Below are positions 637 to 26,592 of a DNA stretch of 51,285 nucleotides, piece after piece. The notes beneath the pieces were generated by a model that was not told the DNA's origin, searched no databases, and saw only the letters and a list, made by a program, of their open reading frames with translations. A program made the translations under genes and the position numbers. Where the stretch lies: the NCBI GenBank assembly GCA_021740785.1, contig JAIOZI010000033.1, forward strand, positions 1-51,285. The letters are read 5' to 3'. Numbering within the stretch: the first letter of the stretch is position 1; every line of letters starts with the position of its first letter. Origin of the DNA: Melioribacteraceae bacterium. GTDB taxonomy: Bacteria > Bacteroidota > Ignavibacteria > Ignavibacteriales > Melioribacteraceae.

Positions 637-2760
637 TTATTTTAGCAGAATCATTTTAATCGTTTTGGAAAAACCGGATGCTGTCAATCTGCAGAAATAT
701 ACATCACTAGGTAAATCTCTTGCGTTAAATTTCGCCTCATAGGATCCGCCATTAAGTGAGCCGTTGACAAGTTCAATTAATTTTTCGCCAAGATGATTAA
801 ACACTTCTAACGTTACTTGAGATCTTACAGGTAAGGAAAAACTTATAATTGTCTCCGGGTTAAAAGGGTTTGGATAATTTTGATAAAGCTGATATTCTGA
901 GATTATCTCATTCTTATTATTAACCGGATTAACATAATCTATTGTGAAGACTGAATCCGACATATCATTTATTGAAGAAAAATCGGAATCCACAATCATA
1001 ATTTTACAATCTTCGGATTGTTGATCGGGGACCAGCCACCGATAGAATCCGAATTCAGCCGGTGTTTCCGGAGTTACAAATGTCCACGAACTTCCACCGT
1101 TTGTCGATAATCCGATTGTTACGGCATCAACTTTAAGACTTGTCCATTGTATCTCCTGAACCGTACCGATATCCATCATTTCACCGCCGTTCGGATGAAT
1201 GATATTTATCTGCGGATTCGTATCAGGTTCATAAATCTCGAATCTATTAATGTTAAACCCGCCATTTTCAACCACAAACTTAAAATCATGCAGCCCTTGC
1301 GAAAGAGTAACATTTGATGAAACCGGTACCCACTCCTGCCAATCACCGGTATTGGGAACCGTAATTGAACCGGTAACGTCAACTCCGTCAATCTCAATAT
1401 GAAAACCGGAGTTTGCATTTTCAGATGCTACTCTAGCTGATATCTCATATTCGGCACCGGATAAAACATTTACAGTATATAAAATCCACTCACCGGCTTC
1501 AGTCCACCCGACATTAAAACCGTTATTATCATCGAGACAAACCTCGGTATCAACTCCTTCCAATTTTCTATATGTAAATCCGCTGTTCGGAATTGTATTA
1601 TCATTATATGCAACTCCGTTTCCGCCGATATCATAATTTTCTGCTTCAATAACTCCGGGAATTTGTGCTGGATTACCTGAATACGGAGCCCGTTCTGATC
1701 CGCCTCCGACAATCACATCAGAAGTAAATGATTCACCGCGGTAACCGTCCACAGATACGGCAACAGCTTTAATTTTATAATTCCCGGCTGAAACATTTCG
1801 CCATGTCATCTCAAAAGGTTCGAGATCCGTTTCCCCGATCTGCATTTGATCTTGATAAAACTCTACTTTTTCGATTTCGCCGTCATATTCAACTTCGGCA
1901 GAAATGGTTATATCCGCAAACTCATCGTAACTTGCATTATCAACCGGATCAGTCAATACGATTCCAGGAATAAGCGAGGCATCCTGATATACTCTCACAT
2001 AATCAATTTCCATTGTTTGGGGAAATTCGGTTGTTGCATCAGGATAACCGGGCCAGTTGCCTCCAACAGCAATATTCAGAATAATAAAAAACTCCTGGTG
2101 AAACTCACTCAACCCGCCGGGGGTAATATCAATCACATGAAATTGAGTTCCGTCAACAAACCATTTTATGTATTGCGGTGTCCATTCGATTGTGAATAGA
2201 TGAAAATCATCGGCAAAAATTCCTGTTGATAAAACGTAATTACCGCCATACATGGCATGACCGTTATCATCCCAATGTGCAGTTCCATAAGTAACATTAT
2301 CATTAGTAGAGCCGCCGATCATTTCCATAATATCGATTTCACCGCATGCCGGCCAGCCTACGGAACTGATGTTTTGCCCAAGCATCCAGAATGCAGGCCA
2401 AATTCCTTGACCGTAAGGCAGTTTCATTCTCGCTTCTATCTTCCCGTATTGAAATGATTTATTATCTTTTGTAATTAACCGGGCAGATGTATAATCCCTG
2501 CCGCCGAAGCTCTCTTCCAGCGCACGGATAGTTAACTTGCCGTCTTGAACAAAAGCGTTAGTATCGCGGTCGGTGTAATACTGCCATTCATTATTACCCC
2601 AGCCGCCGCCTCCGGTTTCACGAGTCCATATCGATTCATTCAATTGAGTGCCCGAGAATTCGTCAGACCAAACCAGTGTATAAGTTTGTGCAGATAAACT
2701 TATTGTTAATATCAAATACAATGCTGCAACTACAGGTTTTAAATACATATATGTTCTCAT
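637..2760 (-). CDS. GH16 endo-beta-1,3-glucanase (laminarinase) with CBM6 and T9SS sorting domain
   Basis: Secreted 707-aa laminarinase-type enzyme. A signal peptide spans about residues 1-24. The GH16 domain (about 26-260) carries the catalytic E-I-D-I-M-E motif with E141 as nucleophile, D143 and E146 as acid/base, and ends in the usual D-Y-V-R-V-Y strand. An Ig-like domain (about 263-352) follows, then a CBM6 (about 365-512), which in this family binds beta-glucan chains. A beta-sandwich starting H-P-N-G-G-E (about 517-608) and a type A T9SS sorting domain (about 626-707, N-Y-P-N-P-F-N-P) complete it. The product should be surface-attached or released and cut beta-1,3-glucan internally. It is the last gene of the run 10729 to 637, 24 nt after GH5. 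Substrate within GH16 is inferred from the motif and neighbours; other beta-1,3/1,4-glucans remain possible. Confidence 0.9.
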   Translation of the reverse strand: MRTYMYLKPVVAALYLILTISLSAQTYTLVWSDEFSGTQLNESIWTRETGGGGWGNNEWQYYTDRDTNAFVQDGKLTIRALEESFGGRDYTSARLITKDNKSFQYGKIEARMKLPYGQGIWPAFWMLGQNISSVGWPACGEIDIMEMIGGSTNDNVTYGTAHWDDNGHAMYGGNYVLSTGIFADDFHLFTIEWTPQYIKWFVDGTQFHVIDITPGGLSEFHQEFFIILNIAVGGNWPGYPDATTEFPQTMEIDYVRVYQDASLIPGIVLTDPVDNASYDEFADITISAEVEYDGEIEKVEFYQDQMQIGETDLEPFEMTWRNVSAGNYKIKAVAVSVDGYRGESFTSDVIVGGGSERAPYSGNPAQIPGVIEAENYDIGGNGVAYNDNTIPNSGFTYRKLEGVDTEVCLDDNNGFNVGWTEAGEWILYTVNVLSGAEYEISARVASENANSGFHIEIDGVDVTGSITVPNTGDWQEWVPVSSNVTLSQGLHDFKFVVENGGFNINRFEIYEPDTNPQINIIHPNGGEMMDIGTVQEIQWTSLKVDAVTIGLSTNGGSSWTFVTPETPAEFGFYRWLVPDQQSEDCKIMIVDSDFSSINDMSDSVFTIDYVNPVNNKNEIISEYQLYQNYPNPFNPETIISFSLPVRSQVTLEVFNHLGEKLIELVNGSLNGGSYEAKFNARDLPSDVYFCRLTASGFSKTIKMILLK

Positions 2761-2784
2761 TTATTTTTTACTTCAGTAAATTTT

Positions 2785-4002
2785 TTATTTTTCTTTTCGC
2801 AGTCCCAACGCCCACAGATAACCGTTATTCGGGAAACAATTTTCAAACTTTGATTCATCAATAAAATCTTCTAATGCTTTTTTTACCTTCTCGATACCGG
2901 GTTTGTTCTCTCTCATATTTGCATATGTACTTCTATCTGATTCGGCATATTCGATTATTAAATCATAGTTACCCGGTTTATTAAATTGAACCGGGCATCT
3001 TTCCGTATCCATTTTCTTGTATGTCCAAAAGTGCCAGCCGATATTGTTACTATCCAGCAGCTCTCTGAAATTAAAAATCCACTCATCCTCATTTTCACCG
3101 GATTCTCCCATATAAATTGGGACATTATATTTCTCTCGAAAATCAACATATTCTTGAATTTCTTTTTGTTCGGGAGGCATCCAATATTTATGAAATTCAT
3201 AGATCAGTTTATCATCGAACGGCTCGCCGAAAACAGAAAAATTTGTATTCCACCTTGCACCGCCTAAAACAATTATGTGGTTAGTATCCACTTCGCGAAT
3301 CGCCGAAACTATTCGTTTATAAAGGGGTTCCAGTTTTTCGTATAAACCTTCATCTTCAAAATAATGTGCAATTGGTTCATTCATCAAGTCATATCCGAGT
3401 ACCATCGGATCATCTGCATAATGTTCGGCAATCCTTTTCCAAATTTCAATAATCTGTTGTTGTGATTCTTCGTTGATAAACAACCACGGGTAACCATAAC
3501 TATCATCAATATTATCGCCGGTTTGCCCGCCGGGAGCGCAGTGCATATCTAAAATTATAGGAAGATTTTCACTTCTGCACCATTCAAGTAGTCTATCAAT
3601 CAGTTCAAAACCGCGCTGAGTTGTATTCCATAAATATGTTTCGTCGCAGAAGAGTTTATAATTAAACGGAACCCTGATTGAATTTAACCCGCTGGATTTC
3701 AGATATTTGATATCCCCGGATGTTATATAGTTATCTTGAAAATCTATCCAAAACTTTTTCGCTTCAGCCGGACCAATTAATTCCGTAATTACATCATTAA
3801 CCATCCGCGGTGAATTTGCTTTCTTAAATTTGAACATATATCCTTCGGGAACAAGCCAGTTACCCAGGTTTACTCCTTTAATAATAAACACGTCACCGTT
3901 TGGATCAATTACATTTCTGCCATCAACAGTATAATATTTCTGCTGTGCAGTAATTACTGACGCAACGAAAATCAACAGTATTAGTACTCTCTTAAAACTC
4001 AT
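2785..4002 (-). CDS. GH5-family beta-glucanase, secreted, without sorting domain
   Basis: A 405-aa protein with signal peptide (about residues 1-19) and one GH5 TIM-barrel. G-V-N-L-G-N-W-L-V-P-E-G-Y at 43-55 is typical of the exo-beta-1,3-glucanase (BglC-like) branch. The acid/base is E209 in D-L-M-N-E-P and the nucleophile E300 in Y-M-G-E-S-G-E-N. There is no T9SS domain, so it probably stays in the periplasm, where it would trim imported oligosaccharides. This differs from its paralogue at 24604-26592, which has CBM6 and a sorting domain. A GGGAGA Shine-Dalgarno precedes the ATG. It lies 18 nt after the CotH gene and 24 nt before GH16, so co-transcription is likely. Exact linkage specificity is inferred. 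Confidence 0.88.
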   Translation of the reverse strand: MSFKRVLILLIFVASVITAQQKYYTVDGRNVIDPNGDVFIIKGVNLGNWLVPEGYMFKFKKANSPRMVNDVITELIGPAEAKKFWIDFQDNYITSGDIKYLKSSGLNSIRVPFNYKLFCDETYLWNTTQRGFELIDRLLEWCRSENLPIILDMHCAPGGQTGDNIDDSYGYPWLFINEESQQQIIEIWKRIAEHYADDPMVLGYDLMNEPIAHYFEDEGLYEKLEPLYKRIVSAIREVDTNHIIVLGGARWNTNFSVFGEPFDDKLIYEFHKYWMPPEQKEIQEYVDFREKYNVPIYMGESGENEDEWIFNFRELLDSNNIGWHFWTYKKMDTERCPVQFNKPGNYDLIIEYAESDRSTYANMRENKPGIEKVKKALEDFIDESKFENCFPNNGYLWALGLRKEK

Positions 4003-4020: not shown

Positions 4021-7000
4021 TTATTTAAGAAGCATCATTTTGTTAACAATGTTTTTTCCTTTTGATGATAATCTTGCAAAATAAATTCCCGATGAAAATT
4101 CAGTTCCGTCAAATTTATAATTATATGTACCGGGTAAAAGCTGCGCATCGACAATAACTGCAATACTTTGACCCAATACATTGAACACTTCCAAACGCAC
4201 ATGCTGATTTTTAGGATTAGAAAAGCGGATTGTCGTTACCGGGTTAAACGGGTTGGGATAATTTTGATAAAGCATAAAATCGACGGGAACCGCAGATTCT
4301 TTTATTTCCGTAAAGATGTCGTTTATTTCACCCGGAGTTCCGTATCCGATCGAAGCTTCCCAGCTTTCAGGTTTCGCATTATCCAGCCATGGGTTTTTAA
4401 GCGACAGTGAATGTCCATTCCCATCGGGCTCTTCGGGCCACGGGGAATTATTATCATAAGTAAGTGAATCAATAATTTTGCCGGACGGGTTAAATAATCT
4501 TATCAGCTCACCGCCGCTGCTCAATCCGAAATTTAGATCACCGGTAAAATTATCAACCGACGAATATTTTTCCGTGAACAAAAGAGTATCCCGGCATAAA
4601 ACCAAATAGTTATCCGCCGATATTACTCTTCCTGAAGGGATTGTAAAAACATGCTCATCATCTTCGTCCTTGAAAATCCAGCCCGATAAATCCACCGATG
4701 TATCAGCCGGGTTATATAATTCAACCCAATCTTCCGTATCAAAATCGGAAGATGAGTTATAGTTTATCTCATTTATTACAATTCCTAAATCCAAATCCGA
4801 CTTTTCAAAAACCGCGGTTAAGTTATGAGAGATGGCGAGCATAATTTCTATCTCGGAAGAATTGCTTTCTACATCGCCCTCCCATTCAACAAACTTATAA
4901 CCGGGGGCAGGAATCGCTTTTATTTTTACCGGAACGCCGCTTAAATAATGCCCGTACCAAGGGAAATCAGTCACAGCTAATTTATTCAACTTTATGTACC
5001 CGGAGTTTGGGAGATTAGTATGCAGTTGAATGAATGCAGTGCCGTTGAGATCAAAATAATTTATAAAGTGTCTTCTTATTTTAACCGGTCGTTGTTCCGC
5101 AAAATCTCTCATCCGTTCAATATTATTATTCCAACCTGAAAGATTGAATCCGTTCCACCTCGAAATATGTCTTTCAATTTCCGGTAAAAACACATTCTTG
5201 AACGAATCGATTTTTGCGATAATTTTTTCCTTTTTGAAAATTGAATTTGTTAGATCGCTGAATCTATTTATAAAATCAGTTTTAAATTCATCATTATTCA
5301 TAAGTGATCTTAGAAGAAAAGTTGACCAGGGCGGATTAGGCCATTCGGGACCATTTGGTTCGAGCGCAAATTCAAGTGTGTTATTTTCATAAGCGTACGG
5401 ATTGAAAATTCCGAAACCGAAATCCGTATCATACAAAACCCAACGCCATTTGCCTTCCCCGGATTTCTCCCGCCAATATTTAATATTATTCCCGGGCCAA
5501 TCCTGGTTATCGATAAATATTTCCGTTAATTCATAATCGATAAAATTATCAACATCCATCAATGATTTTACATATTCATAATTCTCATCAATTGCTGCGT
5601 TATGTGTTTCCAAATAAGAAATAAGTTCCCAGTATTTTTCACCATCACCTTCAAGAACAAAACCGTTGTTTTCCAATAAGTCAATATTATCAGCATCAAT
5701 ATTGTTGTGTGAAGCCAGGTACTCTTCGTTAGCTTTTTCGCGGATGTTATGAATTCCCCAGTAAGCGCCGTTCAAAAAAACAACCGCTGTGCGAGAAGCC
5801 AGATTTTCCAAATCGATATCATCAACCAGGCTTTGCATCATTGCATCACGGAACAAAGTAAACTCCCAATCATTACCTGAATTACGAAGCACAAAGGACT
5901 GGAATGAATTTATCGGCATGTTGGGAAATAATTGATGATCAAATTCTTTATAACCGTATTCACCTCTGGCAAACAATGCCAGCGATTTCTGCGGAAGTCC
6001 CCTGCTATATGCACCGTAAATTTTAACACCGCCGTCAGATTTGAAAGCTCTCTCACCATTGTTTTCATAAATTTCAAAATGAATCGGTCGCTCCCAATCC
6101 TTCCAAAAGTTTGCCCCGAAATAAGGGAATCCCGGTTCGGCGCTGTCTCCCATCACGTAAATTCCGTATTCATCATCGAAGAAATTTCCGGGTTCGGTTG
6201 AAAGAGAAACCACCGGTAATGTGGTTTCGAAATCAATGAAATAGGAGTTTGTAACAATCTCACTCGGCAGGTTTCCATCTTCAATAATTCTCGCACGAAT
6301 TACTTTTGATTCGGAAATGGGAATAGGTCCCGCATAAACTTCCGACGAAATATCCGGGGGAGCACCGTTTGTTGTAATATATATATCTCCGTTTAATGCC
6401 GGGTTATCGATGGTAATAAAAATCGGCTCATTGTAAAAACCGCCGTCAATACTAAAAAGCGGAGGGACGGAAACTCCGGCAAATCCCTCGGTAACATTTG
6501 GTTCGCCCGGTGTTGATTCAGAGAAATAATAAAATTCTGAATTGCCGTCAGGCTTTCTTCCGAAGGATATATCAGGAGATAGCGCGGGGAGAATAAGTGA
6601 GTCTAATAAATTTCCCGACGCATCACTCACGGTCAATTCTTCACCATCTGCCGATAATTGAAAATTTGTATGCAGTGAAGGTAAAGAGAACTCCAAAATT
6701 TCAGGCACACCGTTTGTCGGAGAAGGAATTGAATGCAAACCTAACGTTAGAAAAGGAATAATTGTTAAATCCGAGGATGTGATTCCGTAATTATGCACTT
6801 GAATCGAAAGTACGTTTTCACCTTCTTGTATCAAATCCTTAAATTGATTTAGATCGAACCGGACAGGCTTGCCGCCCTGGTAAATTAACGCTTCACGCGG
6901 TTCGTTTGCCGATTGATTAAAAGGAGTGAAATCACCGGCAGATCCGATATTTGATCTTGCAATCTCAAATCCATTTAAATACGCGATAAAAGCATCATCA

Positions 7001-7572
7001 AAATCGACATGCAGAACGCCTGTAATAATTTGTGAAGTATCATCGATTGAAAATGTTTTTCTGAGATAGAGTGAAATTGTTTGATCGATGATTGTGTAAT
7101 CATCTTCATCACCGTAACCAATGCTTGTATTTCCAATTTGCCATGAAGCATCATTGAATGAAATGTCTTTCCATGCAGAAGGAGGTTCGCTGTCGCCGAT
7201 TCTATATTTCCATTGGTTGCCCCAATTAATAATTGTTTCCCAATGTTTAATATTACTCTTGCGGTCTTTTCCTGATGCGAAAATTGTGAGGAACTCACCT
7301 GACTCAAAAGATAATTCCGGGAAAATCCATTTGCCCGGTTCATTTTCATTATCACTGATTGAATAACCTGATAAATTTATTGTGTTGGGACTGGAATTGA
7401 AAAGTTCTATCCAGTCGGGGGTATCGTTGTCTTCATCAAATAATGTATTTGCGTTTGAGGACATAACCTCATTAATGACAATCGATTGTGCATGAACACT
7501 AATAAACGTAAAGACAAAAAACAAACTACAAACGAGAATTAGATTAGTTGTTTTGTATTTCCAACTACTCAT
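4021..7572 (-). CDS. CotH-domain protein with lamin-tail domains and T9SS sorting domain
   Basis: Large secreted multidomain protein (1183 aa). Order: signal peptide (1-29); lamin-tail-like domain (about 30-105, I-V-I-N-E-V-M-S-S-N, D-W-I-E-L-F-N); a galactose-binding-like jelly roll (about 110-275); a chitobiase C-terminal-like domain (about 373-446); a CotH kinase-like domain (about 450-830) with V-V-F-L-N-G-A-Y-W-G-I-H-N-I-R-E-K near 597-613 and D-T-D-F-G at 715-719; an InlB-repeat-like domain (P-G-Y-K-F-V-E-W-E-G-D); a second lamin-tail domain; and a type A sorting domain. CotH is an atypical protein kinase in Bacillus spores. The role of its secreted Bacteroidota relatives is not settled. 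It sits inside the glucanase run, 5 nt after GH16 and 18 nt before GH5, so a surface role in glucan binding or modification is an inference only. Confidence 0.85.
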   Translation of the reverse strand: MSSWKYKTTNLILVCSLFFVFTFISVHAQSIVINEVMSSNANTLFDEDNDTPDWIELFNSSPNTINLSGYSISDNENEPGKWIFPELSFESGEFLTIFASGKDRKSNIKHWETIINWGNQWKYRIGDSEPPSAWKDISFNDASWQIGNTSIGYGDEDDYTIIDQTISLYLRKTFSIDDTSQIITGVLHVDFDDAFIAYLNGFEIARSNIGSAGDFTPFNQSANEPREALIYQGGKPVRFDLNQFKDLIQEGENVLSIQVHNYGITSSDLTIIPFLTLGLHSIPSPTNGVPEILEFSLPSLHTNFQLSADGEELTVSDASGNLLDSLILPALSPDISFGRKPDGNSEFYYFSESTPGEPNVTEGFAGVSVPPLFSIDGGFYNEPIFITIDNPALNGDIYITTNGAPPDISSEVYAGPIPISESKVIRARIIEDGNLPSEIVTNSYFIDFETTLPVVSLSTEPGNFFDDEYGIYVMGDSAEPGFPYFGANFWKDWERPIHFEIYENNGERAFKSDGGVKIYGAYSRGLPQKSLALFARGEYGYKEFDHQLFPNMPINSFQSFVLRNSGNDWEFTLFRDAMMQSLVDDIDLENLASRTAVVFLNGAYWGIHNIREKANEEYLASHNNIDADNIDLLENNGFVLEGDGEKYWELISYLETHNAAIDENYEYVKSLMDVDNFIDYELTEIFIDNQDWPGNNIKYWREKSGEGKWRWVLYDTDFGFGIFNPYAYENNTLEFALEPNGPEWPNPPWSTFLLRSLMNNDEFKTDFINRFSDLTNSIFKKEKIIAKIDSFKNVFLPEIERHISRWNGFNLSGWNNNIERMRDFAEQRPVKIRRHFINYFDLNGTAFIQLHTNLPNSGYIKLNKLAVTDFPWYGHYLSGVPVKIKAIPAPGYKFVEWEGDVESNSSEIEIMLAISHNLTAVFEKSDLDLGIVINEINYNSSSDFDTEDWVELYNPADTSVDLSGWIFKDEDDEHVFTIPSGRVISADNYLVLCRDTLLFTEKYSSVDNFTGDLNFGLSSGGELIRLFNPSGKIIDSLTYDNNSPWPEEPDGNGHSLSLKNPWLDNAKPESWEASIGYGTPGEINDIFTEIKESAVPVDFMLYQNYPNPFNPVTTIRFSNPKNQHVRLEVFNVLGQSIAVIVDAQLLPGTYNYKFDGTEFSSGIYFARLSSKGKNIVNKMMLLK

Positions 7573-7577
7573 CTCAA

Positions 7578-8447
7578 TTACTCGGTTCTTTGAAAAACTC
7601 TTACGTAGTCAACTTCCATAATTTTAGGAAATTTTGTTGTTTCATCGGGTGCGCCCGGCCAGTCACCGCCAACTGCAACATTCAATAGCAGATGAAATCT
7701 TTTATCGAAAGGCCAAGTTTTGTAATTGCCTTCATTATCATTTAAGAATGAGAAATACTTCTTTTCATCTACAAAAACTTCAATACTGTCCTTCGTCCAT
7801 TCAACTGAATAAATATGAAAATTTTCATTAGCATCCGGAACTATGGTCTGCGCAGATTTTTGTGTGCCGATTCTATGATTATAAGCCTCCGTGTGAACCG
7901 AACCATGAACTTTTCCCGGATCGTACCCAACATGTTCCATAATATCTATTTCACCGCTCGCAGGCCATCCGCCGTATTCCCAATCGGTTGGCAGCATCCA
8001 GATTGCAGGCCACATCCCTTGTCCATATGGAATTTTTGCACGCACATCAATTCTAACGTATTTCCAATCACCATTATTTGCAGTTCTCATTCTCGCCGAT
8101 GTGTAATCTCTCGTGGTTCCGCTTGCGGTATAAGTCTCTCTCAATGCAACAATGTTTAATTTACCGCTGTCAACATAAGAGTTCTCCCGTCTATCGGTAT
8201 AGTATTGTAATTCATTATTACCACCGCCGGATGCGTTAACTTCGTGTTCCCATTTGGTATCGTCAATTTCAGTTCCCTCAAACTCATCATTCCAGATTAA
8301 TGTATAACCCTCCCTTTCCGGCAATTGGTTTTGATCACCGTTCTGAGTCGGCGGAGTTTCATCCTCGGAACATTTAGCAAATAAAAAAAACATTGATAAT
8401 GAAATCAGTGCAATCGGTTTTAATATATTTTTATAAATCATAATCAT
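7578..8447 (-). CDS. GH16 beta-glucanase, probable lipoprotein
   Basis: A 289-aa single-domain GH16 enzyme. Catalytic residues lie in E-I-D-I-M-E: E166, D168, E171. It ends in the standard D-Y-V-R-V-F strand. The N-terminus is hydrophobic up to C26 (F-L-F-A-K-C-S-E-D-E), followed by an acidic, proline-rich linker. The Cys and acidic +2 to +4 residues suggest a lipoprotein, but Lys at -1 is poor for a lipobox, so anchoring is uncertain. Its ATG overlaps the glucokinase stop (ATGA), which points to translational coupling. The 707-aa GH16 has binding and sorting domains; this one has neither and probably works on oligomers at the outer membrane or in the periplasm. Confidence 0.88.
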   Translation of the reverse strand: MIMIYKNILKPIALISLSMFFLFAKCSEDETPPTQNGDQNQLPEREGYTLIWNDEFEGTEIDDTKWEHEVNASGGGNNELQYYTDRRENSYVDSGKLNIVALRETYTASGTTRDYTSARMRTANNGDWKYVRIDVRAKIPYGQGMWPAIWMLPTDWEYGGWPASGEIDIMEHVGYDPGKVHGSVHTEAYNHRIGTQKSAQTIVPDANENFHIYSVEWTKDSIEVFVDEKKYFSFLNDNEGNYKTWPFDKRFHLLLNVAVGGDWPGAPDETTKFPKIMEVDYVRVFQRTE

Positions 8448-10856: not shown

Positions 10857-10864
10857 CATAAAAT

Positions 10865-13111: not shown

Positions 13112-13149
13112 TATTTCCTCTGGTTTAATTAGCCCATTAACAGTTTTGA

Positions 13150-17486: not shown

Positions 17487-17509
17487 TACAATCTCCACAA
17501 CTTTTCATT

Positions 17510-20170
17510 TTAATATGAAAAACTAATTCCCAATCTTATTTGTCTTGGTGCATTATACATACCAGGATTATTTACAAATTGATCTATGGTATTTAACCCG
17601 TTTATATCACCGGCAAATTTTGTATTAAGATCAACATTAGCTCTTCCTGTTGTACCGTAAACTCCATACTCGTTTCTAATATCAAGTAGATTATAGACCC
17701 AGAGGTAAGTATGGAATGTGATTCCCCATAGGTCAAAAAACTTATCAGCTTTCAAATCAAGATTAAAAGTTGCGGGTTTAATTCCGCCGTTTTCAAATCT
17801 GACGCCATTTGATATTCTAATATCCTCCGTATAAGGTTGACCCGAACCATACTGAAAAATTATTCCGACCATCCAATTCCCGGGTTCGCCGACATTTGCG
17901 GTTAAGTTTAATGTAGATCTTTGATCCCAATTCAACGGTACCAGTTTCTTTTCTGATTCTACCGGGGGATCTGTTTGATTATCATTATATACTGCAAACG
18001 GGTCGGAAGCATTACCTTCTGCAACCTGAAATGTATAGTCTAATTTTGCACCGAAATAATCCGCGAATCTTTTATCGAATGCAACCGTGAATCCTTTAAC
18101 GTTTCCGTAATCACGATTTATAAAACGGGCATATTTCAGTCCTTCATATGTATTTATAATTTCCATTCCAAGCAGATTTCTAATATCGGAATAGTACGCT
18201 GTTAAATCCAAAGAAACATTCGGGAAAATCACCTGCTGAAGACCAACTTCGTACTGAACTCTTCTTTCAACTTTTAAGTTCGGATTTCCCGTATAGGATG
18301 AAAGCGATGCGCCTTGACGAATTATGTATTCATCATTTACATAAAGATTCTCGAAACGCGGAATTTGCAGAAAATGTCCGTATGAAAAATATATTGCTCC
18401 CTGATCCGAGATGGGAAATGCAACACCTAATCTTGGACTAATCTGCTGTTCCGGTTCTGAATCAACATACTCATTATATCCGGGAAAGTCCTGATTATTT
18501 AACGGATTTCTTAAATCAGCCGGCAATGTAGAATTCGAGTTAAAATAATCGATACGCACACCTGCATTAATTATCATCCGCTTATATTCCACTTTATCCT
18601 GAATAAATGCAGCCAATTCATAAGGGAATTTTCTGTACTGCTGATTTCCGGGTGTGTGTAAATCCGGGTAAGTAGGTCCGTCCATGAAAACCGGGTTCCC
18701 GAAAAAGTCTACGGAATCAGACCTATCACTAATACCCCATCCATGATCAAACATCTCATGAAGTCTTCCTTCAACACCTAACTTAACTTTGTGTTCTTTT
18801 GAAACCTGCGCTTCAACGGTCCATTGACCAATAAGTGTTTTAGTCTGACGTTTATATCTCCCGGTTTGGTTTCCGCCCTGTCTGAAGGTATAACCGGAGG
18901 TAGGGTTTCCATGAATAGGATGAACATACCTCTCATCGAAAGGATCTTCGTAAAGATATCCTTTATAATCATGCTGGTTATAAGAAAATTTCAAACTGGT
19001 AAAAGTCTCAGGAGTGGGGAAAAATGCTATTTGAACACTCTGAATAAAATTATCCCTGTAATGATTTTGCAAACCGTCCGGCGTCCATCTGAAAGAATGA
19101 TCATAATATTTATTCCAATTCAGATCATAAAATGCCGAATAGCTGAACTTCCATTTGGGCAGTGAATATGTGAGTTTCCCGTTGAATGATTTTTTCTCGT
19201 AAGGATTCATAGGAACATATTCACCATCCCCGGTTGGAGTAAAATAATTTACATCATCAACATTATAGACTCTTTTGCCGTATAGATAACCTTCATCTCT
19301 AAAATATCTTCCGGTTAAAAAGAAAGTAAGACCGTCTAAAATTTTAGTAGGTCCGCTGATTGATGCCTGCACATCCTTGGGTCCGTCTTTAGGATTGAGC
19401 TTATTTGCATTTTGGAATAATTCACCGCCGTCAGCCAAATAACTTCCGACGAAAGCGGATGCATATCCTTCATACTTAGTTGAAGAGCCTTCTTTAGTAA
19501 CAATATTAACGACACCGGAAAGTGCTTGTCCGTACTCGGCATTAAAAGTACCCGAGATAACTTCCAACTGTCTAATAGAGCTATTTTCAACCTCTACGGA
19601 AATATTTCCATTATAAGCATCTGTTACCGGAAGACCGTCAATTAGATAAGCAACCTCGCCCAATCGTCCGCCTCTAAAGTGACCTCCAACGACTCCCGCT
19701 TGCAAATTGACAATCTGAGATACATTTTCAACCGGCAGCATTTTAATTTCATCGGATGAGACAGTTACAGATGTTGAAGTCAAATCTTTTTGTATTAATG
19801 GTCTTTCGGCTTGTATTACAACTTCCTGCCCTAATTCCAAAACATCCGGTCTCAAATCAATATCAAGCTCGGTGGTGAGATCAATTTTGATAATCACATC
19901 TGTGACTCTGGTTTTTTGATATCCGACGGCGCTTACGATTACCGTATATTTACCGGGTTGAATATTGTTTATGAAATAATAACCTTCGAGATCTGCTGCA
20001 GCACCAAGATATGTACCTTCCAAAATTATATTTGCCCCGATAACGGCTTCACCCGTTTCGCTGTCAACTATATAACCGGAAAGTTTACCTGTTTGACCAG
20101 CCCAAACATTAACACTTAGGAGGAATGCAAGAATAAAAAACATACCTCTTCTTAAAATCTTCTTATCCAA
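17510..20170 (-). CDS. TonB-dependent receptor with N-terminal carboxypeptidase-regulatory-like domain
   Basis: An 886-aa outer-membrane transporter. Signal peptide about 1-25; a CarboxypepD_reg-like beta-sandwich at about 28-112 (G-Y-I-V-D-S-E-T-G-E-A-V-I-G-A-N); plug domain about 118-228 (I-D-G-L-P-V-T-D-A, I-S-G-T-F-N-A-E-Y-G-Q-A-L-S-G-V-V-N-I-V-T-K); 22-strand-type barrel ending in I-S-F-S-Y. Start is a TTG 7 nt after a strong GGAGGA. The architecture is SusC/Oar-like, but no SusD gene follows. Next to glucanases it most likely imports beta-glucan oligosaccharides. The substrate is inferred. Confidence 0.88.
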   Translation of the reverse strand: MDKKILRRGMFFILAFLLSVNVWAGQTGKLSGYIVDSETGEAVIGANIILEGTYLGAAADLEGYYFINNIQPGKYTVIVSAVGYQKTRVTDVIIKIDLTTELDIDLRPDVLELGQEVVIQAERPLIQKDLTSTSVTVSSDEIKMLPVENVSQIVNLQAGVVGGHFRGGRLGEVAYLIDGLPVTDAYNGNISVEVENSSIRQLEVISGTFNAEYGQALSGVVNIVTKEGSSTKYEGYASAFVGSYLADGGELFQNANKLNPKDGPKDVQASISGPTKILDGLTFFLTGRYFRDEGYLYGKRVYNVDDVNYFTPTGDGEYVPMNPYEKKSFNGKLTYSLPKWKFSYSAFYDLNWNKYYDHSFRWTPDGLQNHYRDNFIQSVQIAFFPTPETFTSLKFSYNQHDYKGYLYEDPFDERYVHPIHGNPTSGYTFRQGGNQTGRYKRQTKTLIGQWTVEAQVSKEHKVKLGVEGRLHEMFDHGWGISDRSDSVDFFGNPVFMDGPTYPDLHTPGNQQYRKFPYELAAFIQDKVEYKRMIINAGVRIDYFNSNSTLPADLRNPLNNQDFPGYNEYVDSEPEQQISPRLGVAFPISDQGAIYFSYGHFLQIPRFENLYVNDEYIIRQGASLSSYTGNPNLKVERRVQYEVGLQQVIFPNVSLDLTAYYSDIRNLLGMEIINTYEGLKYARFINRDYGNVKGFTVAFDKRFADYFGAKLDYTFQVAEGNASDPFAVYNDNQTDPPVESEKKLVPLNWDQRSTLNLTANVGEPGNWMVGIIFQYGSGQPYTEDIRISNGVRFENGGIKPATFNLDLKADKFFDLWGITFHTYLWVYNLLDIRNEYGVYGTTGRANVDLNTKFAGDINGLNTIDQFVNNPGMYNAPRQIRLGISFSY

Positions 20171-20243: not shown

Positions 20244-22718
20244 TTACTTCAGTAACAACATCTTCTTTGATGAAGTGAAGTTACCGGCTTGAATCTGATA
20301 AATGTAAACACCACTTGATAATTTTGATGCATCAAAATTAACTGTGTGTTGACCTGCATTTAATTCTTTGTTAACTAAGGTCACCATTTCCTGACCAAGT
20401 ATATTGTATATTTTTAGTGTAACAAAGCCGTTTTCTTTTAGTGAATAATTGATTGTTGTTGACGGGTTGAACGGGTTAGGATAGTTCTGTGATAACTTAT
20501 ACTCATGAACTAAAGCGTCTTCGTCATTAACATCAACCCATTGATCACCAACCCATGTAATAGCCCAACGGTTTACATCTCTCCATGAATAGTCTTCGTT
20601 TAATGGTGAATATGTCATAATACCTTCACGGGCATCTGAATTCGGCGTATCATTATCATTGATAGAATAGTCGATCGGTAAACGCATACCAACCAGCCTG
20701 TTAAATCTTGCGTCATCAAGAGAAGCTGCTAATTCATCAAGGGAGATTTTTGCTTCAATTGTATAGCCTGAAGGGAATGCTTCTTCCCAGTAATAATCAG
20801 CATCGCCTCTTCTTAAGAATACAGGACTTCCATTGTGATCCAAAAATGCTGCATTATAGCCGAATCTAAAATGATAATCAGGTTCAGCGCCTCTTTCATA
20901 AGAAGTATGTGACTCGCCTCTAAGATCATACAAACCGATGAATAAATCGGGGCAGTCAATCAAGTAAGATGTGAAAGTTGTATCGTTGCTCACAACGTCA
21001 TCTTCGATATCGAAAGCTACATACAAGTAATCTTCATCTATCGCGACCCATGAATCTACGGATAGATCGGAATTACCGTCGATTGTTGTATTTGTAACGA
21101 CAAATCCTGTTCCATTATCCGGGTACATACTGAATGGTTCAATTTCAGACCATTCGCTCAAATCACCATCAGCAGCAAAAGCAACTGTGCTAGGTTCGAT
21201 TGTTGTAACGCCTTCTGCTAGGTTGGATGTTGGTGTTGCTGTTGCGCCAACCGGACTAACATTCGCAAAATTATCAGCGCATGTTACTGCATAATAATAC
21301 TCAACAGTTTGATCTGTAGCGGGAGCAATAAGAACGTGATTTACTGTCTGAATACCTTCACCTACACCGAGAGCCAATCCGTATACACCTTCCTGATCTA
21401 CTTCGGCAATCGGGTCTTCGGAATAATAAACGTTATATGTTTCGCCTTCTTCAAGCGGTACATCCGACCATGAAACTACGTTTAAGTAAGTATCGGAAGC
21501 AAATCCCTCAACATTTTCCGGAGCTGCAGGTGGAACTAAATCAATTATAGGATTGCCTGTCCAGATATAATCGAAGTACACTTTATTACCTGCAACTGAA
21601 TTACCTTCTGCCATAAATTGGAATACAGTAATTTGCGAAGAGTCGAAAGCTGTTGCACCATCGATATAATAGAAATCTCTCAAAGGAATTGCATATTCAT
21701 GCCATTCACCGTCATTAACAGGATCCCAAGCATGACCTACAACTCCGGCAGGCGATTCAAACTGCATACGGCAGGCTGCAACAGTACCTTCAGTTTTCAT
21801 TTTGAATTTAAGAGAATCGAGTTCCCATCTGTTTGCAATGTCTGCCGCAGGATCAATATTCCAGCCCGCGCCAGTCCAGCCATTAGCCCATTCGTCGCCT
21901 TGTGTCCATAACAAAGCATTGGTAGCCGGATCTTCGCCGCCGCCTTCAATTAATTCTAATGCTGATTGACCCCATGTAAACGCGCCAAATCCGGCGCCAA
22001 CTGTTTTTCCGTTAAAAATGAATAATGGATTTTCAGCCACTTCGAAAAGTGTGAAGTCATCAAGTACTATTGTACCCGAAGAAATGTTACCTTCACCTCC
22101 GCCGCCGATTGAGAATTCAATTCCGTAACCTTTGATCTTATCGAGATCAAGAACGCCGTTACCGCTGATACCAGCCCAGCCGGTTAATGTAAAACCAGCT
22201 CCGTCATAAGTGTCGGTTCTAGTCATATCCATTACTATTTCGTTCCAACCGGGTTCCATATCAAGAATATAATGGAAAGAATAGTAAAGCTCGGTAGCAT
22301 TAGCATCATAGGTATTTGCTCCTGTTGCGGAATTACTTGCATCGTAGAATTGTACTCGAAGATGAACCTGACCCACATCGCTTTGAGGTACTGAATTGTA
22401 ATACCAAATACTCAATTTGTTGTAGGCTGAGAAATCATAATATGAGTTTGTATCAGGATGCCAGGTTTCCATCTTGTAAAATCCGCCCCAGCCTTCTGAG
22501 TTCTGGACTGCATAATCCATCTGCATTGCATTATCTACGCCGTGAACAGGATCATCGATGTACGACAGGTCGAGATATGCAAGCGAGGTATCGGCTGATT
22601 CCGATGTAACCATAATTATAGAATCCTGTGGTGCATCAAAACTATTAACCATCTGAGTTTGTGCATTCATGAATCCTACAACTGCAAAAAACAAAAATAG
22701 TGCTAGTACTTTTTTCAT
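20244..22718 (-). CDS. T9SS-secreted protein with carbohydrate-binding-like domains
   Basis: An 824-aa protein with signal peptide (1-19). Two jelly-roll domains lie at about 25-230 (ending G-T-I-V-L-D-D-F-T-L-F) and 235-395 (ending V-Y-F-D-Y-I-W), like CBM11/CBM-type sandwiches. A fibronectin-III-like domain (about 400-490), a CBM9-like sugar-binding domain (about 500-725: D-G-D-L-S-E-W, Y-L-Y-V-A-F-D-I-E-D-D-V) and a type A sorting domain (N-Y-P-N-P-F-N-P-S-T-T-I) follow. No catalytic site is seen, so glycan capture at the surface is the likely job. AAGGAGGT stands 9 nt before the ATG. It is the first gene of the receptor operon. Confidence 0.78.
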   Translation of the reverse strand: MKKVLALFLFFAVVGFMNAQTQMVNSFDAPQDSIIMVTSESADTSLAYLDLSYIDDPVHGVDNAMQMDYAVQNSEGWGGFYKMETWHPDTNSYYDFSAYNKLSIWYYNSVPQSDVGQVHLRVQFYDASNSATGANTYDANATELYYSFHYILDMEPGWNEIVMDMTRTDTYDGAGFTLTGWAGISGNGVLDLDKIKGYGIEFSIGGGGEGNISSGTIVLDDFTLFEVAENPLFIFNGKTVGAGFGAFTWGQSALELIEGGGEDPATNALLWTQGDEWANGWTGAGWNIDPAADIANRWELDSLKFKMKTEGTVAACRMQFESPAGVVGHAWDPVNDGEWHEYAIPLRDFYYIDGATAFDSSQITVFQFMAEGNSVAGNKVYFDYIWTGNPIIDLVPPAAPENVEGFASDTYLNVVSWSDVPLEEGETYNVYYSEDPIAEVDQEGVYGLALGVGEGIQTVNHVLIAPATDQTVEYYYAVTCADNFANVSPVGATATPTSNLAEGVTTIEPSTVAFAADGDLSEWSEIEPFSMYPDNGTGFVVTNTTIDGNSDLSVDSWVAIDEDYLYVAFDIEDDVVSNDTTFTSYLIDCPDLFIGLYDLRGESHTSYERGAEPDYHFRFGYNAAFLDHNGSPVFLRRGDADYYWEEAFPSGYTIEAKISLDELAASLDDARFNRLVGMRLPIDYSINDNDTPNSDAREGIMTYSPLNEDYSWRDVNRWAITWVGDQWVDVNDEDALVHEYKLSQNYPNPFNPSTTINYSLKENGFVTLKIYNILGQEMVTLVNKELNAGQHTVNFDASKLSSGVYIYQIQAGNFTSSKKMLLLK

Positions 22719-22766: not shown

Positions 22767-24395
22767 TTAAGCAAAAAAACTCCAAAAAGTTATTGCTGAA
22801 AAGACTAATCCAACGATTATATACAACTCAATTTTCTTTACCCTAAGCTTAGATAGTGTTAAACCGTTTTGAGTGATTGTATGGCTTCCGATATAAATTC
22901 CGAAATCACTAAGTTTTGTTTTTGCTCCATCTTCATTAAATTCAAGTTTACTTCCGAGTATCATAATTCCGCTTGAAGCTAAAAACAGGAAGATTGCAAA
23001 GTGCAGGAAATTAATTTCTGCAAATGAGATTAAGAATTGAGTTGTTAAAAGATCGCTATTATTCAACATCTCAAGCACTAAACGAATAAGTCCAACAATT
23101 CCACCGAAAATTAAAGCCCAAAATGCTCCCCTTGCATTTAAACTTTTTCTGAAGAATCCCAATAAAAATACTGCTGCAATCGGCGGACTGATATACGATT
23201 GAACGCTCTGAAGATAAACATAGACATTAGTACTTATCATTTTGATCAGCGGCACCCAAATAATTGCCGAAACGACCATGATGGTTGTTGCAAGCCGCCC
23301 GACCAATACCAATTTACGCTCGGAAGCATCGGCATGTTTTGGCTTGTAGATATCGAGAGTATAAAGAGTTGAAGTACTGTGAAAAACGCTTGCCAATGAA
23401 GACATCATCGCTGCAATGAGCCCTGAAATAACCAAACCTTTTATACCAGCAGGAAGTAAACTTCCGCTTACTAAAAACGGGTAAGCTTCATCACCTGTAA
23501 TTTCGGGGTAGAGCGCAACGGCAATAAGTCCGGGCATAACAAAAATAAAAACGGGGAACACTTTTAGAATAGCAGCCAACAGAGTTCCCCGCCTAGCAGT
23601 TTCAACGTTCTTAGCACTTAAAATACGCTGAACAATGTACTGGTCTGTACACCAGTACCACACTGCTAATATAGGAGCACCGAAAATTATACCCGTCCAT
23701 GGAAAGTCAGGATCTGAAATTGGTTTAAAAAGTGTAAAATAATCAGAGGGGAGTTTGGCAGTTAGACCATCAATCCATCCTACCTTTTCCAGTCCGAAAA
23801 AAGTTAATAAAGTTGAACCGACTAAAATAATAACCGTCTGAAAAACCTGTGTATAAAGCACAACCTTCATCCCGCCGATGACAGTATACAGACCTGTAAG
23901 TAAAATCATAACAACGGCAGAGGTAAACATATCCCATCCGAAAACTTCTTTTAGAAGAAGTCCGCCTGCAAACAGTGTAACAGAAATCTTTGTGATTATA
24001 TATGCAAAAATCGAAACGTAGGTGATATATTTTTTACTTCGTTTATCATACCTCATTTCAAAAAATTCGGGAATTGTAAAAACGCCTGTTTTCAAAAATA
24101 TCGGGGCGAAAAACCAGCCGAGAAGAATTAAGATAAAAATTGCCATCCATTCGAATTGACCTACTGCCAAGCCTCTTGATGCGCCACCGCCGGCTAAACC
24201 TACAAGGTGTTCACTGGAAATGTTCGTTGCAAATAATGATGTTCCGATGGCAATCCAGCCAGCAGATCTTCCGGCTAAGAAGTAATCTGTGGTTGTCTGT
24301 TCTTTATCGCTGTGGAGATATAAAACAATTGCAATAATTGCTAAAAAGTAGAGAATAATTACAGAACTATCATATATGTTCAAACTTCCGATCAA
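22767..24395 (-). CDS. SSS-family sodium/sugar symporter (SGLT-like)
   Basis: A 542-aa inner-membrane protein with about 14 hydrophobic helices. It shows SLC5/vSGLT signatures: D-Y-F-L-A-G-R-S-A-G-W, S-L-F-A-T-N-I-S-S-E-H-L-V-G-L-A-G, W-Y-W-C-T-D-Q-Y-I-V-Q-R-I-L-S-A-K-N and the S-S-L-A-S-V-F-H-S-T-S-T sodium-site region. It probably imports glucose or a glucoside with Na+. The start is uncertain: the longest frame begins at a TTG with no good ribosome site, and no ATG lies near. It ends 48 nt before the next gene. A second, H+-type hexose permease sits at 9416-10729. Confidence 0.88.
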   Translation of the reverse strand: MIGSLNIYDSSVIILYFLAIIAIVLYLHSDKEQTTTDYFLAGRSAGWIAIGTSLFATNISSEHLVGLAGGGASRGLAVGQFEWMAIFILILLGWFFAPIFLKTGVFTIPEFFEMRYDKRSKKYITYVSIFAYIITKISVTLFAGGLLLKEVFGWDMFTSAVVMILLTGLYTVIGGMKVVLYTQVFQTVIILVGSTLLTFFGLEKVGWIDGLTAKLPSDYFTLFKPISDPDFPWTGIIFGAPILAVWYWCTDQYIVQRILSAKNVETARRGTLLAAILKVFPVFIFVMPGLIAVALYPEITGDEAYPFLVSGSLLPAGIKGLVISGLIAAMMSSLASVFHSTSTLYTLDIYKPKHADASERKLVLVGRLATTIMVVSAIIWVPLIKMISTNVYVYLQSVQSYISPPIAAVFLLGFFRKSLNARGAFWALIFGGIVGLIRLVLEMLNNSDLLTTQFLISFAEINFLHFAIFLFLASSGIMILGSKLEFNEDGAKTKLSDFGIYIGSHTITQNGLTLSKLRVKKIELYIIVGLVFSAITFWSFFA

Positions 24396-24603: not shown

Positions 24604-26592
24604 TTATCTGATTAATATCATTTTTCTCGTCTTGGCGCCAAATTCCGAATCTACTTTGTATAAATAAAGACCCGATGCACATTTTTCTCCGCTGTCCCGA
24701 TTTCCGTTCCATGTGAAATTTTGTTTTCCTGCTGTAATTTCATTTTCAGTAATCACCGAAACCAGATTTCCCAAAATGTCATATACTTTTATGGTTAGAT
24801 ATGTGCCAGCCGGTAAATCGACTTGAATATTTGTTTCCGGATTGAACGGATTCGGGTAGTTTTGATAGACTTTGTAATCAGTTGGTAGTTCTTCCTCAAC
24901 AGAGGAAGGTTCAATCAAAACAAACTTCGCATAATTAAAATTGGAACCACCTAATACAAACTGAACCATCAATTCCGAACTACCTGCAGTTAGATTGACA
25001 TTTTCTAAAACATGATCCTGCCAAATCTGCCAACCGCCTGTACTTGCCAAACTGAAAGAAGATCCGATTTGAATACCGTTAATTAAAACCTTCGCAACAG
25101 AACCACCGCTTTGGGATGCATACCTGAAAACAATGTCATACTTCCCGGCAGTCTGCACATTCAGAGTGTATTTCATCCAGTCACCATTATCAATCCATCC
25201 CACATTAAATCCATTTGTTACATCATCTACACATGCTTCTATATCTACGCCGTCATTTCTGAAACTCCATCCATTATTCCAATTGCTCCCGCCGATATTT
25301 TGATATTCTGAATCTTTATAGGCATGATTCAACCGTCCGTAATCATAATTTACTGCATAAATGTACCCGGGAACTATATTTTCCGCGAAAGGGAGAATTG
25401 AATTATCATACGGCTGCCTCAGCAAAGCATCAACAACATCATAATGAATAGCACTATTTTCCAGGAGAAGATTTTGAGCTAGTGTTTGGAACGCAAGGTT
25501 AGCATATGTTTCGGATGGCTTCGGTCCCCCGTTCCAATAATCCAATACTGCTTGATACTGTGTTGAAACGGGTGTTGAAATTGGTCCGGTTGTGGAAGAT
25601 ACTTTTTTGTACGTCCACCATGCCCATCCGATGTTATTGTCTTCCATTAATTCAACACAGCTTGCAAACCATTCGTTGGAGTTTTCGCCGCTCTCACCAA
25701 GCCAGAGAGGTCTGTTTGTTGTGCTTCTTAGATTGAGCAAATAATTTATTGTACCAACATCGGTTTGATTCCAGTACTTATGAAAGCTGTAAACCATATT
25801 TTCGTCCCAGGGCGGAGTGAGACCTGCAAATTCGGTTGCAAACCAATTCCCCTCGATAAAAACAATATGATTAGTATCTACAGTTCTTATCGAATCCGTT
25901 ATTCTGATGAACAACTCACGAAGCGGGGCATTATCGTCACCGAGTTCCCATGCGGTTTCATTTATCAAATCATAACCGCCGATCCACTCTTCATCTTTAT
26001 ACCGTGAAGCAATTTCTTTCCACAGTGCGACTGTTTTGTCTTTATGAGCTTCGCTTTCCCAAAGTGACGGATAACCTGCATAATCGCTTATCGGTTCAGC
26101 GCTCTGCCCTCCCGGAGCGCAGTGCAGATCCAAAATAAGATATAATTCATTTGCTTCGCACCAGCTCAAGAGTGAATCTATTGTTTCAAATCCGCTTTCA
26201 TAATACACGCCGGTTTCATCGCGTGATGTCAATAGTTCGAAATGCATCGGCAGACGAATTGAATTAAATCCCCATTCGGCAATTAAATTAATATCTTCCC
26301 GTCTAATGAAATTATCACGGTACTCGTTAAAGAAATCCTCTGTATTAGCTTCACCGATTAAATCGATAATTGCGTTTTTAATTTCAGTCGGAGAGTTAGC
26401 GACATTCGATGATTGAAGCATATATCCTTCCGGAACCAACCATCCGCCCAAGCCGAAACCCCGAAGAAGAACATTATCACCGGATTGATTAACTATCTGT
26501 TTGCCGTCAACTTTTAGAAATCCTTGTGAGTAGAAATTTGGGCTTGCAAACACAAATACAAGTAAGAAAAGCAGTAGCTGCAAATTTTTCAT
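24604..26592 (-). CDS. GH5-family beta-glucanase with CBM6 and T9SS sorting domain
   Basis: Surface enzyme of 662 aa: signal peptide (1-22), GH5 barrel (about 25-370), CBM6 (about 400-550, with G-F-N-V-G-W and G-D-W-M-K-Y) and a type A sorting domain (about 580-662). The nucleophile is E300 in W-L-G-E-S-G-E-N. The acid/base is E212 in D-L-I-N-E-T, where the usual N-E-P has become N-E-T; the Glu is kept. It is a clear paralogue of the GH5 at 2785-4002 (shared W-L-V-P-E-G-Y-M and H-C-A-P-G-G-Q), with exo- or endo-beta-1,3-glucanase activity likely. It lies 208 nt upstream of the symporter in the same direction. Confidence 0.88.
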   Translation of the reverse strand: MKNLQLLLFLLVFVFASPNFYSQGFLKVDGKQIVNQSGDNVLLRGFGLGGWLVPEGYMLQSSNVANSPTEIKNAIIDLIGEANTEDFFNEYRDNFIRREDINLIAEWGFNSIRLPMHFELLTSRDETGVYYESGFETIDSLLSWCEANELYLILDLHCAPGGQSAEPISDYAGYPSLWESEAHKDKTVALWKEIASRYKDEEWIGGYDLINETAWELGDDNAPLRELFIRITDSIRTVDTNHIVFIEGNWFATEFAGLTPPWDENMVYSFHKYWNQTDVGTINYLLNLRSTTNRPLWLGESGENSNEWFASCVELMEDNNIGWAWWTYKKVSSTTGPISTPVSTQYQAVLDYWNGGPKPSETYANLAFQTLAQNLLLENSAIHYDVVDALLRQPYDNSILPFAENIVPGYIYAVNYDYGRLNHAYKDSEYQNIGGSNWNNGWSFRNDGVDIEACVDDVTNGFNVGWIDNGDWMKYTLNVQTAGKYDIVFRYASQSGGSVAKVLINGIQIGSSFSLASTGGWQIWQDHVLENVNLTAGSSELMVQFVLGGSNFNYAKFVLIEPSSVEEELPTDYKVYQNYPNPFNPETNIQVDLPAGTYLTIKVYDILGNLVSVITENEITAGKQNFTWNGNRDSGEKCASGLYLYKVDSEFGAKTRKMILIR

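Follow-up and report, generated by a model that had tools for sequence, protein, structure and literature searches.

Prediction of polysaccharide utilization loci (PULs) leans on pairs of SusC and SusD, so lineages like the Ignavibacteria, and in the same way the Calditrichota and the Neomarinimicrobiota, may look devoid of glycan uptake loci. This paper deals with a set of three genes recurring in such lineages, which encode a TonB-dependent receptor, a large secreted protein (named BIG here) and an outer-membrane barrel of the PorV/PorQ family (named PVL here). The set was studied in a stretch of 51,285 nucleotides (hereafter the window), which is contig JAIOZI010000033.1 (C91 among our contigs) of a Melioribacteraceae bacterium (Bacteroidota, Ignavibacteria, Ignavibacteriales; assembly GCA_021740785.1) whose genome of 4.85 Mb is 99.88% complete. 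The module is often found beside sugar-degrading enzymes in bacteria which mostly lack SusCD, and there it probably fills the role of that pair with another set of components.

Among the described systems nearest to this set, barrels of the PorP/SprF type shuttle or anchor a cognate protein of type B of the type IX secretion system (T9SS), often encoded next to them, in F. johnsoniae and P. gingivalis (PMC9143113; PMC12618676). PorZ and PorU are anchored via the PorV and PorQ barrels (PMC8545088). In addition, a paper on Rhodothermus marinus (PMC9530828) describes an alginate PUL (tonB-hypA-hypB) which has, in this order and beside alginate lyases, tonB (2,805 nt), a gene for a T9SS protein with a type A sorting domain (2,181 nt) and one for a PorV/PorQ family protein (1,056 nt); both partner genes are named hypothetical there, and SusD has 0 occurrences in its main text. 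This PUL is an independent published instance of the gene order. In a paper on Porphyromonas, one figure legend shows a gene of PorV/PorQ type, and likewise one of the T9SS, near genes for haem uptake (PMC12106395). A literature search which covered few subscription papers and no bioRxiv preprints gave no account of the triplet as an uptake module in the texts, partly excerpts, that it reached.

Recurrence and Joint Inheritance of the Triplet

The three genes lie in the window as follows.

17510..20170, minus strand: TonB-dependent receptor, first gene of the triplet, with a CarboxypepD_reg-like domain at the N-terminus followed by plug and barrel (PF13715, PF07715 and PF00593)
14361..17498, minus strand: BIG, secreted protein of 1045 aa, second gene of the triplet (signal peptide without lipobox)
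13333..14346, minus strand: PVL, PorV/PorQ-family outer-membrane barrel, third gene of the triplet (NF033709)

The likely start of BIG is four codons later, which gives 1041 aa. A search of the same genome gave 22 matches for BIG, some of which are fragments of one gene, and 21 for the PorV/PorQ family. Receptor, BIG and PVL stand in the same order and on the same strand in nine triplets, on contigs C91, C8, C49, C107, C72, C53, C37, C19 and C24; the triplet of C19 carries two BIGs, and C59 is a variant locus with its BIG located apart. Ten of the 29 plug-domain matches in the genome fall in these ten loci, and around the 19 other receptors, from three genes upstream to five downstream, neither a BIG nor a PVL is present (0/19). 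On a profile made from the triplet receptors themselves, the nine triplet receptors score 912-1223 (that of the window 1170) and the other 19 at most 214.

The BIG profile found a match in 29/29 genomes from the family and the order, the present genome counted, and sixty regions around BIGs contained the triplet in 60/60 cases, these regions having been picked by hand from the top of a score-ranked list and then more sparsely lower down, with some at contig ends skipped. A scan of named genomes gave at least 567 BIG relatives; the best 80 of them come from records titled, among others, Ignavibacteriales, Melioribacteraceae, Calditrichota, Neomarinimicrobiota, KSB1, Gemmatimonadota, Latescibacterota, Delongbacteria, Stahlbacteria and Kryptonia. 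Fifteen further loci were taken from other classes of the phylum. The gene order was checked in six frames at 155 loci from this order, other classes and other phyla, in three sets of which the last is the fifteen loci just named; four loci stand in both of the first two sets and are counted twice (L098/L197, L099/L183, L100/L184 and L107/L182) and a side short of sequence is left uncounted. The receptor was upstream of BIG in 148/149 testable loci (73/74, 60/60 and 15/15 by set), PVL was downstream of BIG in 148/149 (74/75, 59/59 and 15/15), and the full order was present in 143 of the 144 loci testable on both sides (69/70, 59/59 and 15/15). The sole true exception among the testable loci is L216 (BIG at 9983-13237), with neither receptor nor PVL adjoining; in L175, L188 and L212 an extra open reading frame (ORF) is interposed, a gap which the check allows. 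L212, from Gemmatimonadota, has two BIG-like ORFs in tandem at 9983-14807, as with the two BIGs of C19. The median intergenic gaps in the triplet are 15 and 14 bases.

The receptor-BIG-PVL order recurs beyond chance, and these three genes make up the conserved core. An earlier note on this DNA had counted a fourth, a T9SS protein rich in carbohydrate-binding modules (CBM), here the CBM9-domain protein; receptor, BIG and PVL do recur, whereas the CBM9 protein is a partner mainly in the cluster of BIGs to which that of the window belongs (17/19).

The three proteins have also been inherited jointly. Their distance matrices for the nine paralogs correlate with r 0.83-0.88, a value which at most 1/2000 permutations reach, and since the paralogs come from one genome, species differences cannot cause this correlation. 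Among 54 non-redundant triplets, r is 0.78-0.86.

SusC and SusD in the Genome and the Phylum

The absence of a SusD homologue, noted earlier for the region 637-26592, extends to the whole genome, where PF07980 gave 0 matches. None of the genome-wide matches to the SusC model TIGR04056 is over the cut-off (0/31), the receptor of the window having 58.3 bits against the 368.25 required by this SusC/RagA model. Within the phylum, SusD matches were found in 213/395 genomes (E 0.001) and BIG in 169/395 (E 1e-20). BIG is present in 40/40 genomes of this order (families f1-f3). In the class it is found in 83/98 genomes and SusD in 21/98, where the BIG match exceeds 1e-100 in strength in 57 of the 83 and is weaker and perhaps partial in the others; outside the class the figures are 86/297 for BIG and 192/297 for SusD. 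Melioribacter roseus was reported to have one sus operon with SusC, SusD and SusE (PMC3534657).

Gene Neighbourhoods and the Link to Sugars

Recognised sugar genes stand beside six of the nine triplets of the genome, namely GH16, GH5 and GH3, which are families of glycoside hydrolases (GH), at C91; PF10091, GH2 and GH94 at C8; a sugar-type ATP-binding cassette (ABC) transporter together with GH130 and GH2 at C49; a parvulin and a T9SS protein with CBM48/CBM20 at C107; GH5, at a distance of two genes, at C72; and GH106 and PfkB at C37. The seventh, at C19, has DUF2961 and a CotH protein. PF10091 is taken here to be GH144, and DUF2961 is presumably GH172.

In a Pfam tally of triplet neighbours, which took 98/114 neighbour proteins and 28/32 clusters with neighbours, the top 25 of 99 families include ABC permeases (7), CBM9 (6), solute-binding proteins (SBP; 5), CBM20 (3) and GH130, GH16, GH99 and PF10091 (2 each), among others. 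The four clusters left out are loci of the present genome, in which 9 of 16 neighbours were annotated singly. Scans of single triplet neighbours further brought up GH53, GH97 and GH3 as well as a domain of rhamnosidase type. Among neighbours of the 19 other receptors, no glycoside hydrolase stood in the top 25 of 96 families, so that a rare carbohydrate-active enzyme (CAZyme) is possible in this control; and 17 control regions searched with the labelled set gave no GH, the set itself being derived from triplet loci. A T9SS tail was seen on 27/98 triplet neighbours and on 2/48 neighbours of the control receptors. A neighbour with a generic T9SS tail was found at 113/120 triplet loci (109/116 without duplicates), the 120 being triplets with four or more same-strand neighbours, against 3/19 control receptors; in the present genome only, the comparison is 8/9 triplets against 3/19 controls (Fisher p 0.0004).

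Neighbours were also typed for 136 triplets (132 distinct) in 33 clusters of BIG, with labels taken from proteins of the present genome, so other enzymes go unseen. A 42-member cluster (38 distinct) has ABC/SBP genes in 39 and GH130 in 31; the 19-member cluster of the window has SSF and CBM9 genes in 17 and GH3 in 16; a 10-member cluster has GH94 in 8 and PF10091 in 7; and a 4-member cluster of starch type (L046, L118, L119 and L121) has CBM48 and parvulin genes in 4/4. BIG clusters go with distinct sugar pathways. That the set recurs beside groups of CAZymes, as had been supposed earlier, was borne out in the present genome and in related genomes, and in the examined loci its genes are not restricted to CAZyme-free places such as the vicinity of iron or cobalamin genes. 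Parvulin-type peptidyl-prolyl isomerases are also near triplets in five loci from other classes (L311, L314, L317, L318 and L322); the parvulin is perhaps a dedicated periplasmic chaperone.

The triplet of the window belongs to a run of thirteen genes from 26592 down to 637, all on the minus strand with short gaps, which is therefore likely to be one operon or a few in series. The other ten genes are the following.

24604..26592, minus strand: GH5 with CBM6 and T9SS tail (Pfam)
22767..24395, minus strand: SSF sodium:solute symporter (PF00474 / TIGR00813)
20244..22718, minus strand: CBM9-domain T9SS protein (PF06452 and PF18962)
10865..13174, minus strand: GH3 (Pfam)
9416..10729, minus strand: sugar transporter of the major facilitator superfamily (MFS), GluP/FucP-type, for glucose/galactose or fucose (TIGR01272 and TIGR00885)
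8444..9415, minus strand: ROK-family sugar kinase, probable glucokinase (PF00480)
7578..8447, minus strand: GH16, probable lipoprotein (PF00722; lipobox-like N-terminus by a loose rule)
4021..7572, minus strand: CotH/LTD protein with T9SS tail (Pfam)
2785..4002, minus strand: GH5 (Pfam)
637..2760, minus strand: GH16 with CBM6, Big_7 and T9SS tail (Pfam)

All the enzymes and transporters named in the earlier note are there, and it had overlooked the CotH/LTD T9SS protein (4021-7572). This CotH-kinase/LTD protein lies inside the CAZyme run, and a similar protein is found at the triplet locus of C19. What had been called a glucokinase belongs to the ROK family, with a score against the ROK_glcA model of 228.8, below the cut-off of 260.35. 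The term hexose symporter is fair for the MFS protein but does not fix its sugar, as the models for glucose/galactose (TIGR01272, 404.7 against a cut-off of 202.55) and for L-fucose (TIGR00885, 292.4 against 280.4) are both passed. The lack of a regulator also holds, in that Pfam gave no regulator family among 29 scanned proteins of the window, the contig of which ends at base 1. The substrate of the locus would most likely be a beta-glucan such as laminarin.

Elsewhere in the window, a 70-aa ORF at 294-506 on the plus strand looks by eye like little beyond a T9SS sorting tail, perhaps what remains of a cargo gene; nearby, the contig-edge ORF 3-221 likewise ends in a T9SS-like tail. Past the region, 29795-34575 contains PaaA/PaaC and PaaD families (phenylacetate degradation) and a CoA-ligase-like gene.

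Predicted Structure and Tail of BIG

Three parts can be told apart in BIG.

15987..17399 (approximate), minus strand: N-terminal region with a predicted beta-supersandwich fold (structure comparison of the predicted model)
16269..16544 (approximate), minus strand: inserted acidic D-x-D-x-D-G loops (invariant and near-invariant Asp/Glu columns)
14364..14681, minus strand: C-terminal domain, divergent T9SS type-A-like sorting domain (profile comparison)

The predicted model of BIG has a mean predicted local distance difference test score (pLDDT) of 86.4 and a predicted template modelling score (pTM) of 0.80. In VIA-align, its residues ~29-660 are matched with beta-supersandwich domains from glycoside phosphorylases and from hydrolases related to these; rank 1 has Z 19.5 with 265 aligned residues at 3.3 A and the best 50 rows (Z 14.0-19.5) are all carbohydrate-active enzymes by title; we take GH94, GH65, GH15, GH116 and GH149, in part, to be the families among these matches. 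Foldseek matched the same region to GH94 entries with a probability of 1.00. It also gave PorZ (rank 1) and PorU, with low TM-scores, and its matches to fibronectin-like and complement chains were discounted, Ig-type architecture being common. Beyond the signal peptide, the model contains only four helices of at least 4 residues, the longest of 16, and no catalytic (alpha/alpha)6 barrel, so BIG as modelled is likely to bind rather than to catalyse. Neither a sortase nor a propeller domain was observed in BIG. The motif D.D.DG is present in 120/136 BIGs, and the acidic loops are probable Ca2+ sites, judging from these residues. Two BIGs of the peptidase cluster (L048, 3354-6479; L149, 10527-13634) have a CxxCH just past the signal peptide, presumably a c-type haem site.

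The tail of BIG is of a distinct class. Por_Secre_tail (PF18962/TIGR04183) gave no match in the BIG of the window at E 0.01, and profile comparison with the same family indicated distant kinship (probability 94%); the tail also weakly matches those of the PorU and PorZ models. A generic-tail profile made from 12 ordinary tails was the best fit for 225 proteins and for 0/136 triplet BIGs; that BIGs favour their own tail profile holds by construction, and the informative half of this comparison is that 0/136 fall to the generic one. The idea that PorU alone shares the tail class of BIG was rejected, as in 13 relatives the tail of PorU scores much the same with the one profile as with the other. 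The PorZ tail matches the BIG-tail profile only, and weakly (16.8 bits), a protein of C34 matches that profile alone, and one of C103 matches both. By a loose lipobox rule, which detected all five lipoproteins tried, 130/136 BIGs have no lipobox and 6/136 are lipobox-like, the BIG of the window not being one of them. The 130 without a lipid anchor therefore need another anchor.

PVL and the Type IX Secretion System

PVL scores 203.5 bits against the PorV/PorQ family model NF033709 (cut-off 90) and is below the cut-offs of all three equivalogs, with 56.5/250 bits for NF033710, 104.2/220 for NF033711 and 58.6/325 for NF052325 (PorV, PorQ and PorV2). Four other triplet PVLs which were scanned have the same pattern, passing the family cut-off and failing the equivalogs. 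At E 0.01 the NCBIfam matches of PVL are only of PorV/PorQ type, with none to the PorP/SprF family. The genome encodes SprA, PorU, PorQ and PorZ, each over its cut-off, and a PorU-linked PorV with 249.6 bits against a cut-off of 250. In a tree, 14 PorU-linked PorVs form one clade (100/100), which PorQ and PorV2-like rows join (87/94), and the triplet PVLs are outside; the tree has 40 triplet rows in all, added loci included, covers part of the 54 non-redundant triplets, has a bootstrap which had not settled, and does not demonstrate a single PVL clade.

The earlier note had left open whether the PorV-like protein serves uptake or cargo handling. As an uptake pore, PVL would be FadL-like and take up oligosaccharides or other compounds beside the receptor, while BIG would bind at the surface in a general way, and its barrel (model pLDDT 90.5) does have the N-terminal hatch helices common to FadL- and TodX-type channels, which it matches with Z up to 30.7. 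The best folds, however, are chains of T9SS translocons, chain F of 8gl6 (a RemA-tail-bound T9SS complex; Z 34.0, 280 aligned, 3.2 A) and chain F of 6h3i (Z 33.5), against 30.7 or less for FadL-type channels, and Foldseek gave E 2.3e-15 for a T9SS translocon chain and 4.3e-9 for FadL. We assume chain F of both entries to be PorV. The sequence family is likewise that of PorV/PorQ, PVL directly follows BIG in 148/149 testable loci, and FadL-type channels carry hydrophobic compounds, so an uptake pore is very unlikely. Because its best fold match is of PorV type, PVL is more readily understood as holding BIG, its cargo; of the two roles suggested earlier, that of cargo handling is preferred to that of a channel.

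Cargo handling could also mean that PVL is a shuttle for the ordinary T9SS enzymes of its locus, BIG being merely one more cargo, and the generic T9SS-tail proteins near 113/120 triplet loci speak for this. These neighbours' tails are generic, though, and should be served by the PorU-linked PorV, while the tail of BIG is a distinct class; 7/120 triplet loci have no generic-tail neighbour, and PVL is just after BIG in all but one of the 149 testable loci. On balance, such a shuttle seems unlikely, and PVL as the holder of BIG is preferred.

A Proposed Capture-and-Uptake Unit

Gene identity, order, recurrence and joint inheritance, the predicted folds of BIG and PVL, the T9SS genes and the neighbours are the material from which the following proposal is made. 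We are inclined, with some reserve, to regard receptor, BIG and PVL as one outer-membrane capture-and-uptake unit, in which other components take over the work of SusCD. Export of BIG would run first through Sec and then, by way of its C-terminal domain, through the T9SS. PVL would take the tail of BIG from the translocon and keep BIG on the surface, as PorP/SprF do with type B cargo and PorV/PorQ with PorU/PorZ. A T9SS-type tail without a lipid anchor, a PVL from a tail-gripping family, a single receptor subfamily and the precedents of PorP/SprF and PorV/PorQ together suggest that PVL may hold BIG beside the receptor. The supersandwich and Ig domains of BIG would be placed above the receptor or next to it, where they would bind oligosaccharides set free by the T9SS-secreted enzymes of the locus, and the TonB-powered receptor would import these for the periplasmic enzymes and the inner-membrane transporters. 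BIG would thus be a functional stand-in for SusD.

Several results weigh against this proposal. The supersandwich of BIG comes from a predicted model, and profile-profile comparison of the N-terminal region with GH94 was not significant (probability 4.5%). As PorU tails fit the BIG-tail and the generic profile about equally, the tail class alone is no sign of a protein being retained. In a segment test on 51 triplets, BIG tracks the receptor above PVL in every part, tail included (partial r 0.41 for the receptor and 0.16 for PVL), and therefore shows no special coupling between tail and PVL. SusD occurs in 7/40 genomes of this order, all of the same family as the window, with one or two matches each, some of them weak, and BIG and SusD are found together in several genomes of other classes. 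By these counts and this coexistence, the module prevails in the order without excluding SusCD. Moreover, no CAZyme was among the scanned neighbours at C53, which has peptidases M16 and M28, or at C24, which has a GWxTD protein; several BIG clusters elsewhere carry no sugar label, and the neighbour shares of outside loci are biased, as these loci were found by likeness to the BIG of the window and its paralogs.

The last points bear on the view that the triplet is a general envelope module, for surface-layer assembly or export or for the import of peptides or other nutrients, and that its link to CAZymes comes from sampling. It is in keeping with the peptidase-linked and CAZyme-free copies and with the choice of outside loci by similarity, but in the present genome all nine triplets found were read, six have sugar genes and their neighbours are unlike those of the other receptors; the clusters match distinct sugar pathways, and the alginate locus of R. 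marinus is an independent case. We consider such a general module improbable. Since some copies go with peptidases or have no recognisable CAZymes, the receptor-BIG-PVL module is broader than glycans, and the alternative to SusCD that had been suggested stands in its recurrence near CAZymes, though with a core of three genes and with some copies away from CAZymes.

More tentatively, and with somewhat more doubt than belief, the capture-and-uptake unit may represent a third class of TonB-powered macronutrient uptake, widespread in the Fibrobacteres-Chlorobi-Bacteroidetes (FCB) group, where it perhaps predates SusCD, in which a T9SS-exported supersandwich protein is bolted by its tail to its own PorV-like barrel in a three-part complex with the receptor, and which radiated into substrate-specific copies for beta-glucans, mannan, beta-1,2-glucan, starch, galactan, rhamnose-rich glycans and peptides. 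The conserved triplet would be a marker by which glycan loci in lineages apparently devoid of them could be found and their substrates guessed. PorV paralogs would gain a role beyond the secretion of generic cargo, and the problem of equipping a TonB receptor with a partner at the surface for large substrates would have a second, unrelated solution.

Comparison with Known Systems

Like the PULs with SusC and SusD, the triplet has a TonB receptor followed by a partner gene, near glycan enzymes, with several paralogs per genome and varied neighbours. It differs from them in that curated models find neither SusD nor SusC, that its partner BIG is beta-rich with a T9SS-type tail and no lipobox, and that PVL is present as a third gene. 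The PorP/SprF barrels with their proteins bearing a type B C-terminal domain (SprB-SprF and PG1035-PorP) resemble PVL in joining a barrel of the FadL family to a cognate T9SS protein; PVL differs in belonging to the PorV/PorQ family, the tail of BIG is type-A-like, and the pair is tied to a TonB receptor and not to gliding or PorE. In PorU-PorV and PorZ-PorQ, a surface protein with a sorting domain is likewise held on a PorV/PorQ barrel, and the order of genes is alike, PorU being just before PorV as BIG is before PVL. In contrast to them, BIG has no sortase or propeller seen, and PVL is outside the clade of PorU-linked PorV and fails the three equivalogs.

BtuG, a lipoprotein of the cell surface, serves the uptake of vitamin B12, and BtuB-BtuG is not known to include a PorV-like barrel. 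Like the triplet, BtuB-BtuG combines a TonB receptor with a partner at the surface that is not SusD (PMC10404256). The alginate locus of R. marinus has the same annotations in the same order as the triplet.

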